This document shows, one piece after another, positions 21,019 to 25,886 of a stretch of DNA of 64,000 nucleotides; positions within the stretch are counted from its first letter, which is position 1; every line of letters starts with the position of its first letter. This DNA comes from Kordiimonadales bacterium (GTDB lineage: Bacteria > Pseudomonadota > Alphaproteobacteria > Sphingomonadales > Kordiimonadaceae). The notes beneath the pieces were generated by a model that was not told the DNA's origin, made no database searches, and was given only the letters and a program-made list of their open reading frames with translations. Location of the stretch: contig WFTS01000008.1 in NCBI GenBank assembly GCA_015485385.1, forward strand, positions 1 through 64,000, read 5' to 3'. A program made the translations under genes and the position numbers.

Positions 21019-21038
21019 TCGAATAAAAAGGATTGTTC

Positions 21039-22148
21039 ATGGAAACCGCAGGACCAGGTCTAATTTTTACGCTAATCGCTTTCATCGGCGGCTTTAGCAT
21101 TTTAGTTTTTGTCCATGAATGGGGCCATTATAAAATGGCGCGGCTGTTTAAGGTGCGTATTGATACATTCTCTATTGGAATGGGCAAAGAAATCTGGGGG
21201 CGTACAGATAAAAATGGAACACGGTGGCGTATAAGCGCTGTCCCGCTTGGCGGGTATGTAAAATTTTTCGGGGACGCCTCTGCAGCCAGTAACCCTGGAG
21301 ATTTACCAGAGGGCCTAAGCGAAAAAGAAAAAGCTGACTGCTTTCATTTTAAACCCTTATGGCAACGAGCCTTGATCGTTTTTGCTGGGCCTGCCGTGAA
21401 TTTAATTGCGGCAGTGATAATCCTTGGGGGGTTTGCTTATATTTACGGGGTAAATATCACACCGTCGATTATTTCAGGGGTTGCTGAACAGTCACCGGCA
21501 GAAAAAGCAGGCTTTATGGCCGGTGACCGCATCCTTTCAATCGACGGCAAGGCTGTTGAGCGGTTTTCAGACGTGGGCGAAACGATACGTTTATATCCAA
21601 ACGCGCGCGTGACTATCGAAATAGAGCGTGCAGGTGAGATCAAGTTCCTTCCGGTAACGCTTGGTGAGTTCAAACAGCAGGATAGATTTGGAAATATCTA
21701 TGTGATGGGGCGTCTTGGTGTGGCCGCAGTTGACGGTGTGCATCACACGGTTGGTCTTGGCGGGGCACTTCTTGAAGGAACGCGAAGAACGGTGCGTATG
21801 GGCAAAACTATGTTCTCCACACTTGGAGAAATTATCATGGGAATACGTTCCGTTAAAGAACTTGGAGGCCCGGTTAAAATTGCAAAAGTTATTGGAGAAG
21901 CGGCAAGCATCGGGGCGGCCAGCTTTATTTCAATTCTTGCTTTATTGTCGCTGAATTTGGGAATCGTCAATTTACTACCGATTCCCGTTCTCGATGGTGG
22001 GCACCTTATGTTCTATTTATTGGAGGCAATTAAAGGTTCTCCGCTCTCAAAAAAGGCTCAAGAGGCCGGATTTATTGCCGGAGCGGCCTTAATGCTGATT
22101 TTTATGGTGTTAGTAACACTGAATGACTTGCAATCTATGGCGCTCTAG
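21039..22148 (+). CDS. rseP: RIP metalloprotease RseP (site-2 protease)
   Basis: VFVHEWGHYKMARLFKV (HExxH), PDZ domain, NLLPIPVLDGGHLMFYLLE. Confidence 0.95.
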   Translation: METAGPGLIFTLIAFIGGFSILVFVHEWGHYKMARLFKVRIDTFSIGMGKEIWGRTDKNGTRWRISAVPLGGYVKFFGDASAASNPGDLPEGLSEKEKADCFHFKPLWQRALIVFAGPAVNLIAAVIILGGFAYIYGVNITPSIISGVAEQSPAEKAGFMAGDRILSIDGKAVERFSDVGETIRLYPNARVTIEIERAGEIKFLPVTLGEFKQQDRFGNIYVMGRLGVAAVDGVHHTVGLGGALLEGTRRTVRMGKTMFSTLGEIIMGIRSVKELGGPVKIAKVIGEAASIGAASFISILALLSLNLGIVNLLPIPVLDGGHLMFYLLEAIKGSPLSKKAQEAGFIAGAALMLIFMVLVTLNDLQSMAL

Positions 22149-22224: not shown

Positions 22225-24810
22225 TTGCGTTTTTTAAATATGCGTTTGATTTTGTGCGCTTTTGTCGCACTAACAATCGGGGGAGCAACGCTAGCGGGAC
22301 CAACTTTGGCCCAACAGCAGCCTGCACCCAAACAAGTGCCATTGATCCGTCAGATCACTGTGGTTGGGAACGTGCGCGTTGAGCCTGAAACAATTGCGTC
22401 CTATTTGGTTGTGCGTGCGGGACAACCGTTTGATCCAAAGCTATTAGACACCAGTTTGAAGAACCTGTTTCGAACAGGCTTATTCTCAGATGTGGAATTT
22501 ACCGAAGAGAACGGTGTGCTGTTGGTGCGGGTGGTCGAGAACCCAATTATCAACCGTATTATCTTTGAAGGTAATAAAAAGCTTGATCGTGAAGACATGT
22601 TTGAGGAAGTGCGTATTCGCCCCCGGACAGTTTTCACACGCTCTAAAGTTCGCGCCGATGTGAAGCGGATGATGAACCTTTACCGTACATCGGGTCGTTT
22701 TGCCGCCATTATTGAACCAAAGGTGGTTCAGCTTGAACAGAATCGCGTTGATGTGGTTTTTGAAATTCAAGAAGGCCCCAAAACCAAAATTAGCCGCATT
22801 AATTTCATCGGCAATAAAGACTTTAGTGATGGTGATCTCAGAGATGTGTTGGCAACAAAAGAAGCCCGTTGGTGGAAAATTTTCTCATCAAACGATACGT
22901 TTGATCCTGATAGACTTGCGTTTGACCAACAAGAACTTCGAAATTTTTACCGCAATGAAGGATATGCAGATTTTCGCATTATTTCAGCGGTGTCCGAACT
23001 AACGCCCGACAGGGAAGATTTTTTCATCACGTTCTCAGTTGACGAAGGCGAGATATACAAATTTGGCACTATTGATGTGGAAAGCGAAATCCGCGATGTG
23101 GATGCCAAGCTTTTCAGGGCCTTTTTGTTGATGCGTGAGGGAAACACCTACAACGCTGAGGCAATTGAGAAGACAATTGAATCGCTTACAAATGCGGCAG
23201 GCCTGCTTGGCTATGCATTTGTTGATGTCCGGCCTAGCTTTGATCGCGATAAAGAAGCGCGCACCATGAGCATTAAGTTTAAAGTGCTTGATGCGCCGCG
23301 TGTTTATGTTGAACGCATCAATATTGGCGGCAACGTTCGCACGCTAGACCGTGTGGTTCGCCGGGAATTCCGCTTGCAAGAGGGCGATGCTTTTAATTCT
23401 ACCTTGGTTACTCGCTCAGAAAACCGTCTGAAAAGATTGAATTTCTTCCGTGAAGCGGAGATCGAACAGCAGCAGGGTTCAAAGCCTGACCGCATGATAT
23501 TGAATGTGAAGGTTGAAGAGCAGGCAACCGGTGAATTGAACTTGGGTGCAGGCTTTTCCAGCCTAGAGAACTTCATCTTTGATTTCTCTATTCGCGAGCG
23601 CAATCTGCTTGGTAAAGGGCAGGATTTAAGGCTTGGTGTTCGGCTTTCTGGTCGGCGTCAGGAAATTGATTTAGGATTTACCGAGCAATATTTCCTTGGG
23701 CGACGGGTTGCTGCCGGGTTTGATATTTTTGCCCGCAGAATCGATTCGTCCAGCTTTGGCTCTGTATTTGACACCAAATCTCTAGGCTTTTCACTGCGCG
23801 CAGGCATGGCCTTGAACGAATATTGGACTCTCTCAACACGTTATACGCTGCGCCAAGATGATGTGACGACGCCAGATAGTTTTACAATCTCGCAGTTTAA
23901 TAGTTTTTTCAGCAACATCTTGAGCAACTTCAATAATGGCAGTGCGGAGACACAGCAAGATCTGTTAATTCAATATGATACGGACGGTGATGGTGTGATC
24001 GAGACGGCAGATTTTTCTGCCGACGGCCAAAGCGAACCTAATATTAGTGAAATGGTTGAAGCCTCTACCTCTAGGGCGTTTCGGGAAAGTATCGGAAAAC
24101 GGTTCCAGTCTATTCTTGGCTATTCTGTTGGCTTTGATACTCGCAACAGCATTATCCGGCCTACACGCGGCAACCAGTTTTTCTTCCATCAGGATTTTGC
24201 GGGTGTTGGCGGCGATGTTCGCTATTTGAAAAACCGTATCAACTTTGATAACTATTGGACACCTTGGTCAGGTTGGACATTCCGCTTTGGCGGTGAAGCT
24301 GGTATCATTCTGGGTCTTGGTCAACAAGTGCGGCTTAGTGATAAGTTTTATATTGGTGGTCCGCGTATGCGTGGCTTCGATATCTCTGGCATTGGACCGC
24401 GTAACTTTAATAACGGTGCAAGAAACTCTCGGAGCTCACTTGGTGGTACGGCCTTTTATATCGGACGCGGGGAATTATTCTTCCCGCTGGGGGATATGGC
24501 GCTGGAAAGCGGTATCAATGCGTCTGCGTTTGTTGATGTTGGGTCGTTGTTCCGTGCCCAAGAAGAACTTGCAGACTGTACATTCACTCAGGCAGAGTTT
24601 GATGCTGCTCAAGCAGATTCAGAAATTGTGTTTAACGGAAATACGAATTGTTTGGCGGGGAACTCTATATCGCCACGTATTGCGGTTGGTATTGGATTTT
24701 CGTGGCAATCACCATTCGGACCTTTCCGAATTGACCTATCTAAGACGATCAAGAAGCAGCTAGGGGACCGGCCACAAACCCTACAGTTTAACGTAGGAAC
24801 AACTTTCTAA
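22225..24810 (+). CDS. bamA: outer membrane protein assembly factor BamA
   Basis: N-terminal signal, POTRA repeats (IRQITVVGNVRVEPETIASYL...), C-terminal barrel ending in F. Confidence 0.96.
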   Translation: MRFLNMRLILCAFVALTIGGATLAGPTLAQQQPAPKQVPLIRQITVVGNVRVEPETIASYLVVRAGQPFDPKLLDTSLKNLFRTGLFSDVEFTEENGVLLVRVVENPIINRIIFEGNKKLDREDMFEEVRIRPRTVFTRSKVRADVKRMMNLYRTSGRFAAIIEPKVVQLEQNRVDVVFEIQEGPKTKISRINFIGNKDFSDGDLRDVLATKEARWWKIFSSNDTFDPDRLAFDQQELRNFYRNEGYADFRIISAVSELTPDREDFFITFSVDEGEIYKFGTIDVESEIRDVDAKLFRAFLLMREGNTYNAEAIEKTIESLTNAAGLLGYAFVDVRPSFDRDKEARTMSIKFKVLDAPRVYVERINIGGNVRTLDRVVRREFRLQEGDAFNSTLVTRSENRLKRLNFFREAEIEQQQGSKPDRMILNVKVEEQATGELNLGAGFSSLENFIFDFSIRERNLLGKGQDLRLGVRLSGRRQEIDLGFTEQYFLGRRVAAGFDIFARRIDSSSFGSVFDTKSLGFSLRAGMALNEYWTLSTRYTLRQDDVTTPDSFTISQFNSFFSNILSNFNNGSAETQQDLLIQYDTDGDGVIETADFSADGQSEPNISEMVEASTSRAFRESIGKRFQSILGYSVGFDTRNSIIRPTRGNQFFFHQDFAGVGGDVRYLKNRINFDNYWTPWSGWTFRFGGEAGIILGLGQQVRLSDKFYIGGPRMRGFDISGIGPRNFNNGARNSRSSLGGTAFYIGRGELFFPLGDMALESGINASAFVDVGSLFRAQEELADCTFTQAEFDAAQADSEIVFNGNTNCLAGNSISPRIAVGIGFSWQSPFGPFRIDLSKTIKKQLGDRPQTLQFNVGTTF

Positions 24811-24840: not shown

Positions 24841-25428
24841 ATGACTATCTATAAAACATTTAGGCTTTTTGCCGCAGCAGTTATCGCTTCACTAAGCCTT
24901 GCAGCGGCTGCTCATGCGCAGATTTTTATTGTCGATAACGAGCGTGTTGAGCGCGAAGCGGCGGCGTATAAAGATTTCAACCTTCAGACAGACGAGATGC
25001 GTCAGCAGATCGTGCAGTTGCGTCAGTATATTTCTCGTGGGGGCGCCGCTGAACAGCAGTTGGGCGAGCTTGAGCAGAAGAAATCTATCATCGGAAATGA
25101 TAAATACGAGCAAGAAAAGAAAAAGCTGCAAGAAACTTACGGTTTGTACCAGCAGCAGCTTCAAATTCTGGAATATCGGTTTGATCAGGTCCGTCAAGAA
25201 GCTATGGTTCAGGTTGAGCGCGCGCGCCAGCCGGTGATCCGCAGCTTGCTGAAAAGCAGGAAAGCACAGATCATTCTGCCTAAGCGTTTGGTCTTTGGCT
25301 CTGCGGCCGGCCTTGATATCACAACCGAGTTTATCGAGCTGTTGGACGCTGAACTGCCGTCTGTAACGCTAACAAAACTGCCTAAGCCTCAGCCAGCTGC
25401 CAAACCTGCACCTGCAAGCGGCAATTGA
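24841..25428 (+). CDS. OmpH/Skp family periplasmic chaperone
   Basis: Signal peptide and coiled-coil, between bamA and fabZ. Confidence 0.85.
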   Translation: MTIYKTFRLFAAAVIASLSLAAAAHAQIFIVDNERVEREAAAYKDFNLQTDEMRQQIVQLRQYISRGGAAEQQLGELEQKKSIIGNDKYEQEKKKLQETYGLYQQQLQILEYRFDQVRQEAMVQVERARQPVIRSLLKSRKAQIILPKRLVFGSAAGLDITTEFIELLDAELPSVTLTKLPKPQPAAKPAPASGN

Positions 25429-25448
25429 TTGCTTGAGTATCAGCTATA

Positions 25449-25886
25449 ATGGCTTTTGATATTGCACAAATTATGGAAGCGATACCGCATCGGTATCCCT
25501 TCCTGTTGGTTGACAAAATTGTTGATGTTGAAAAGGGCGAAAGCGCTGTTGGCATCAAGAATGTCACAATTAATGAGCCGTTCTTCCCTGGCCATTTTCC
25601 GCAAAAGCCGGTTATGCCGGGGGTTTTGATCCTAGAGGCGATGGCGCAGACCGCAGGGGTTCTGGCCATTGATTTTCTTGGGGAAGATGCAAAAGGCAAG
25701 GTGGTTTATTTCATGGGTATTGACGGCGCTAAGTTTCGTCAGCCTGTTGTACCCGGTGATCAATTACACCTAAAGGTAACCAAGACCCGTGGTGGTGGTG
25801 CCGTTTGGAAGTTTGACGCTGTAGCCACCGTGGACGGAGCTGTTGTGGCTCAAGCGAAGCTTACAGCAATGCTTGCTGCTGAATAG
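25449..25886 (+). CDS. fabZ: 3-hydroxyacyl-[ACP] dehydratase
   Basis: IMEAIPHRYPFLLVDKIVD, FFPGHFPQKPVMPGVLILEAMAQTAG. Confidence 0.97.
   Translation: MAFDIAQIMEAIPHRYPFLLVDKIVDVEKGESAVGIKNVTINEPFFPGHFPQKPVMPGVLILEAMAQTAGVLAIDFLGEDAKGKVVYFMGIDGAKFRQPVVPGDQLHLKVTKTRGGGAVWKFDAVATVDGAVVAQAKLTAMLAAE

Follow-up and report, generated by a model that had tools for sequence, protein, structure and literature searches.

An EF-hand-like insertion with predicted calcium loops in extracellular loop 4 of Kordiimonadaceae BamA

Calcium at the surface of outer membrane barrels

Restriction of the extracellular loops of outer membrane barrels by calcium has already been described. For example, in BtuB, a TonB-dependent transporter, the extracellular loop L2 is restricted by calcium, which in that protein increases the affinity for the substrate (PMC7360065). 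Closer to the protein studied here is the large, lineage-specific extracellular insertion found in the BamA of Bacteroidota, where calcium likewise belongs to the surface layer of BAM. In Flavobacterium johnsoniae, extracellular loop 5 (eL5) of BamA has an insertion of 76 residues that constitutes the platform for BamM, whose C-terminal domain contains seven calcium ions (PMC12611786). That insertion is a beta-sheet domain and its calcium is located in BamM, whereas the insert described below belongs to eL4 of BamA itself. Another precedent is given by the Dx[DN]xDG motifs, which have been described in contexts other than the EF-hand, one homologue having a short loop that lacks the motif and another a longer loop that contains it; BamA and outer membrane proteins are not mentioned in the main text of that work (Rigden et al., 2011; PMC3123361). 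The eL4 of Kordiimonadaceae BamA fits exactly this pattern of short and long loops. Searches of an open-access library found no description of calcium or EF-hands in the loops of BamA itself. A domain of about 61 residues with predicted calcium loops, restricted to one lineage, is best regarded as a novelty on this known protein.

BamA is essential and surface-exposed, and is a target of drugs and antibodies. In the stretch of 64,000 nucleotides analysed here (the window), which belongs to a genome assigned to the Kordiimonadaceae because its nearest matches are Kordiimonas species and their relatives, one ORF is unambiguously bamA (Table 1). Its product scores 715.7 bits with the TIGR03303 equivalog profile (cut-off 297) and contains five PF07244 domains (POTRA1-5) followed by a C-terminal PF01103 domain (the Omp85 barrel). 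It shares with other BamA proteins of the Omp85 superfamily the POTRA1-5 domains, a 16-strand-type barrel and the RGF motif of eL6, whereas its eL4 domain and calcium loop(s) are missing from the BamA of E. coli and of most alphaproteobacteria. As this is the only PF01103 or Omp85-family match in the genome, the protein would be its outer membrane insertase. The order rseP-bamA-skp is the same as in E. coli K-12. The usual continuation of the cluster is bamA-skp-lpxD-fabZ; in the window (24841-25886), a fabZ-like ORF, named by inspection, directly follows the skp-like one, and the missing lpxD is consistent with the lack of lpx genes reported below.

Table 1. Features of the window around the eL4 insertion of BamA
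Feature	Position	Strand	Basis or remark
rseP-like ORF	21033-22148		adjoins bamA
bamA ORF	22225 (TTG) or, more likely, 22240 (ATG)-24810	+	five POTRA + Omp85 barrel
Barrel strand beta7 (predicted), before eL4	23824-23868	+	AlphaFold2 model
Predicted helix DSFTISQFNSFFSNILSNFNN	23875-23937	+	AlphaFold2, pLDDT ~85-90
Kordiimonadaceae-specific eL4 insertion, ~61 aa	23881-24063	+	from alignment with the BamAs of E. coli and of further alphaproteobacteria
Predicted 'E' helix AETQQDLLIQY, ahead of loop 1	23944-23976	+	AlphaFold2; LLxxF/Y pattern conserved in the family
Putative calcium loop 1, DTDGDGVIETAD	23977-24012	+	acidic residues at ligand positions 1, 3, 5 and 12; EF-hand-like G6 and I8
Degenerate remnant of loop 2, SADGQSEPNISE	24016-24051	+	changes at positions 1 and 5, E12 retained; begins exactly 13 residues after the start of loop 1
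Predicted exit helix ISEMVEAS	24043-24066	+	AlphaFold2
Barrel strand beta8 (predicted), after eL4	24094-24138	+	AlphaFold2
skp-like ORF	24841-25428		adjoins bamA

The insertion and its likeness to known calcium motifs

A preliminary description of the window had pointed to loop 1 as an EF-hand-like motif, and the motif is present in the translated ORF exactly where it was placed; the numbering D585/D587/D589 given there is also correct when counted from the TTG codon, and becomes D580/D582/D584 from the ATG. The same description proposed an insertion at 23887-24078. The insertion is indeed there, but its span is approximately that of Table 1, ending slightly earlier on the 3' side. When aligned with E. 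coli BamA, the extra residues come within loop 4, between positions 541 and 542. The strict loop pattern has a single match in the whole protein, and it appears in 0.2% of composition-shuffled inserts and in 0.6% of shuffled whole proteins. This rarity by itself is modest evidence against chance; a chance or compositional artefact is ruled out by the conservation of the ligands across the family, the same motif being found at the same place in 27 of its 28 members.

The position of the insert on the protein was deduced from a barrel model made with AlphaFold2 (440 residues, 9 sequences, mean pLDDT 66.7; all the structure models were built on 8-9 sequences), whose top Foldseek matches are BamA structures. 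In this model, strands beta7 and beta8 flank the insert, and the loop joining beta11 to beta12 contains the RGF motif, which is expected of eL6. Counting the strands from the periplasmic POTRA side, the loop that bears the insert is eL4 and therefore extracellular, and homology with E. coli, where the loop-4 positions H555 (PMC6287456) and P556-N563 (PMC6020778) are surface-exposed, also argues for exposure of the insert. The preliminary description had suggested a structure model as a check of the placement, and the prediction gives a confident helix-loop-helix-like unit: most of the insert has a pLDDT of about 86-90, the highest of the barrel model, with helices at model residues 130-150 and 153-163, loop 1 at 164-175 and further helices at 186-193 and 196-201. 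One helical turn is predicted at the end of loop 1, and in the model of the two-loop protein of K. aquimaris a single turn likewise separates both loops. Foldseek searches with the isolated two-loop insert returned only two matches, both of them EF-hand proteins and both insignificant (E 7-10).

Profile comparisons place the insert near the EF-hand. EF-hand profiles match all 12 family inserts tested (best E 4.5e-7), and the best match of an insert profile against the PDB is calmodulin (3.6e-8), with which the insert shares the loop Dx[DN]x[DS]GxIxxx[DE] after an LLxxF/Y helix. The insert of the window matches EF-hand_5 with E=0.006, and its 16.5 bits are below the Pfam EF-hand gathering cut-off of 25.9, so that it is EF-hand-like and is not filed as a member of the family. 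Loop 1 of the window has the ligands 1, 3, 5 and 12, the G6 and the hydrophobic residue 8 of the canonical 12-residue loop. The canonical EF-hand has in addition a helix on each side of the loop; in the insert, the E-helix is present and a single turn lies between loops 1 and 2. In a normal EF-hand pair, the loops are separated by the F1 helix, a linker and the E2 helix; here all of this is shrunk to one turn, since a spacing of 13 residues is too short to accommodate a full helix. A canonical EF-hand pair is therefore rejected on both the helices and the gathering score.

Other families were also considered. Dockerin_1 matches 7 of the 12 inserts (best 7e-5); nevertheless, type I dockerins consist of two loop-helix repeats with a full helix between them, which a spacing of 13 residues does not accommodate, and this identity was discarded. 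Thrombospondin type 3 repeats include adjacent DxDxDG loops with a 13-residue offset, in contrast to which the insert has strong helices and lacks the TSP3 cysteines; this assignment was also rejected, as no insert matched the TSP3 profile in Pfam at a maximum E-value of 10 (HMMER filters drop most matches above ~0.1). The calcium loops of BtuB, for their part, are not known to have EF-hand-like helices. A match to the NCBIfam XopAW profile (E=0.02, below the cut-off) reflects just the EF-hand loop and was disregarded. The other EF-hand_5 matches of the genome are in two small ORFs, of 235 and 174 aa, and recent transfer of a domain from another EF-hand protein of the genome is unlikely because the insert goes back as far as the family itself. 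Judged by its sequence, the insert carries a calcium motif of the Dx[DN]xDG type, EF-hand-like and set in a new context.

Conservation in the family and distribution outside it

The BamAs of 28 Kordiimonadaceae genomes were compared. Two other genomes of the family, G092 and G097, were left out because they are fragmented (93% complete, 250-410 contigs) and have no Omp85-family match, probably owing to assembly gaps. All 28 proteins have a long eL4 (108-132 residues, median 114), and 27 contain a complete 12-residue loop, defined for the family as D.[DNS].[DNS][GDN].[ILVFM]...[DE]; the exception is L044. Two loops are present in 20 members, always with a spacing of exactly 13 residues (12 plus one linker residue, usually F, and Y or L once or twice), and this despite differences of up to ~20 residues in the flanks. 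In loop 1, column entropies are 0, 0.63, 0.87, 0.79, 0.86 and 0 bits at positions 1, 3, 5, 6, 8 and 12, and 2.4, 3.0, 2.7 and 3.2 bits at positions 2, 7, 10 and 11. Loop 2 behaves similarly, more weakly at positions 5 and 8, and its position 12 is E or D (E in 22 of 25). Such a contrast between frozen positions 1, 3, 5, 6, 8 and 12 and free positions 2, 7, 10 and 11 is, at the level of sequence, the signature of selection for metal ligation. In addition, dN/dS of the insert is approximately 0.035 in the two closest pairs, indicating purifying selection.

In a barrel tree calculated without the insert, all 28 Kordiimonadaceae fall on one branch (support 100/100), so that, on the simplest reading, the insert was gained once. 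The second loop probably decayed once, in the subclade formed by the window and L004, L005, L020 and L021 (support 80/61), where its loss maps as a single event and it is replaced by an SADGxSxPxxxE-like sequence, from which L021 departs further. In four of these five members, position 5 of loop 1 is S instead of D, which suggests relaxed constraint there, and the loss of metal sites appears to be ongoing in this subclade.

Outside the family the situation is different. The preliminary description held that alphaproteobacterial BamAs have a short stretch at this place and named conservation in all of them as the observation that would speak against an insertion. The comparison bore out the short stretch: the full 12-residue loop was found in none of 24 BamAs from families of the order other than the Kordiimonadaceae and Sphingomonadaceae, nor in any of 40 from other alphaproteobacterial families, and the median eL4 of these proteins is 55 residues, as compared with 114 in the Kordiimonadaceae. 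The 0/64 count and the short eL4 rule out a universal alphaproteobacterial feature. Neither this comparison nor the structure model contradicted the preliminary description, which mentioned neither the tandem loops of the relatives and the loss of the second one in the window, nor the family-wide age of the insert, its flanking helices and the different insertion of the Sphingomonadaceae at this place. Searches with a profile of the insert and its flanking strands in 385 alphaproteobacterial and 399 pseudomonadotal genomes gave strong matches in Kordiimonadaceae only; among the weaker matches, those of BamA size were mostly from Sphingomonadaceae, with a few other weak ones. The BamA of an alphaproteobacterium outside the order (L088) has an eL4 of 110 residues with a Cys-containing end and no DxDxDG.

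The Sphingomonadaceae have a different and compact design of eL4, FFxDxDGDGxxxC[ED]PLLAGRxLC, in which DxDGDG adjoins a conserved Cys pair (CxPLLAGRxLC). This DxDGDG insertion is present in 32 of 58 BamAs (including L073, L075, L079, L081, L144-L146 and L156-L161), and the eL4 of members without the motif is typically six residues shorter (66 versus 72). From their sequences, the Kordiimonadaceae and Sphingomonadaceae insertions look like independent events at one site.

This parallel is accompanied by a peculiarity of the outer leaflet. The 40 genomes sampled from the order yielded neither LpxB nor an LpxC above its cut-off (40/40 negative), the Caulobacter and E. coli controls being positive, and canonical lipid A synthesis seems to be missing from the order. 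The loss of LPS fails as sole explanation of the insert, as other families of the order without lpx genes have a short, motif-free eL4. The parallel insertion in the Sphingomonadaceae, together with the absence of lpxC and lpxB, hints at a testable link between outer-leaflet chemistry and the design of the BamA surface. We would only tentatively put forward that calcium modules were gained twice independently in the eL4 of these LPS-deficient Sphingomonadales, as a two-loop domain (E-helix, loop, loop, F-helix) in the Kordiimonadaceae and as the six-residue DxDGDG beside a probable disulfide in the Sphingomonadaceae. If this were true, calcium would take part in the working of BAM's outer surface, in a membrane whose outer leaflet differs from canonical LPS, perhaps as a docking site for a surface subunit.

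Proposed role of the insert

The best explanation of these observations (probability about 0.74) is that the insert is a small EF-hand-like domain in eL4 which binds calcium at the cell surface. It would have been acquired no later than the base of the Kordiimonadaceae and maintained by selection, and would act as a staple or cap and not as a sensor. According to this model, an amphipathic helix and the E-helix would run into loop 1, one helical turn would lead to loop 2 (intact in most relatives and decayed in the window), and the exit helix would continue into strand beta8. Extracellular calcium would fill the site and clamp the E-helix against the exit helix, and the long and flexible eL4 would be held as a fixed, compact cap over the mouth of the barrel. 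Sea water, the typical habitat of such bacteria, is rich in calcium, and the site would be permanently occupied; permanent occupancy and a fixed shape of eL4 are what would make the insert a staple or cap. Several points go against this reading, namely the score of the window copy and the loss of its loop 2, the insignificant Foldseek matches, the S at position 5 in the subclade, and L044. The analysis establishes the presence of the insert, its place in the sequence, the conservation of its ligand positions throughout the family, its restriction to the lineage and a confident helical prediction; calcium binding, stapling and surface exposure are inferred. The insert would probably either stiffen the outer face of BamA or dock something there. 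If the sites do bind calcium, chelation or mutation of single Asp residues would toggle the order of eL4, and a calcium domain in a surface loop over the barrel would be a natural test of whether the rigidity of extracellular loops matters for BAM.

Two of the alternatives, a shield and a docking platform, are compatible with the staple or cap as extra roles, and the confidence placed in the rival readings overlaps with that in the main one. A surface shield or decoy is a tangible possibility, on balance doubtful: eL4 would be a fast-evolving target of phages, toxins or antibodies, the insert would alter recognition, and calcium would merely keep the fold. The raised dN of the insert favours this idea; on the other hand, it gives by itself no account of ligand positions that stay frozen while the rest changes, and we know of no phage or toxin of these bacteria that uses BamA. 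In E. coli, changes in loop 4 abolish BamA-dependent phage infection (PMC6020778), and the substitution H555Y in L4 blocks the antibody MAB1 (PMC6287456), which is in favour of the shield.

It is unlikely, despite the precedent of BamA and BamM in F. johnsoniae (PMC12611786), that the main role of the folded eL4 is to bind a surface partner (e.g., a surface lipoprotein) with its shape fixed by calcium. The family-wide presence of the insert and the selection on it favour a docking platform, but no candidate gene for the partner was identified, and the variable length and surface residues, together with a dN about 1.3 to 6 times that of the barrel, do not suggest a conserved interface. Less probable is that the motif binds no metal and is a relic or an acidic loop at the surface; DG-rich acidic loops evolve easily (PMC3123361) and loop 2 has decayed in the subclade of the window, but ligand-specific conservation and exact spacing throughout the family argue against it. 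A calcium sensor, gating BAM activity by binding and release according to the ambient calcium, is less likely and indeed very improbable. In its favour, the sequence of EF-hand-type loops flanked by helices is similar to that of sensor proteins; against it, the single-turn helix between the loops makes the classic two-lobed opening unavailable, calcium in sea water is constant and saturating, and the window copy has a single site.

Finally, the loop at the eL7 position is also extended in Kordiimonadaceae (median 43 residues versus 22 and 13; 24553-24666 in the window). It contains at least two cysteines in all 28 BamAs of the family (codons at 24577 and 24649 in the window), which would form a probable surface disulfide.
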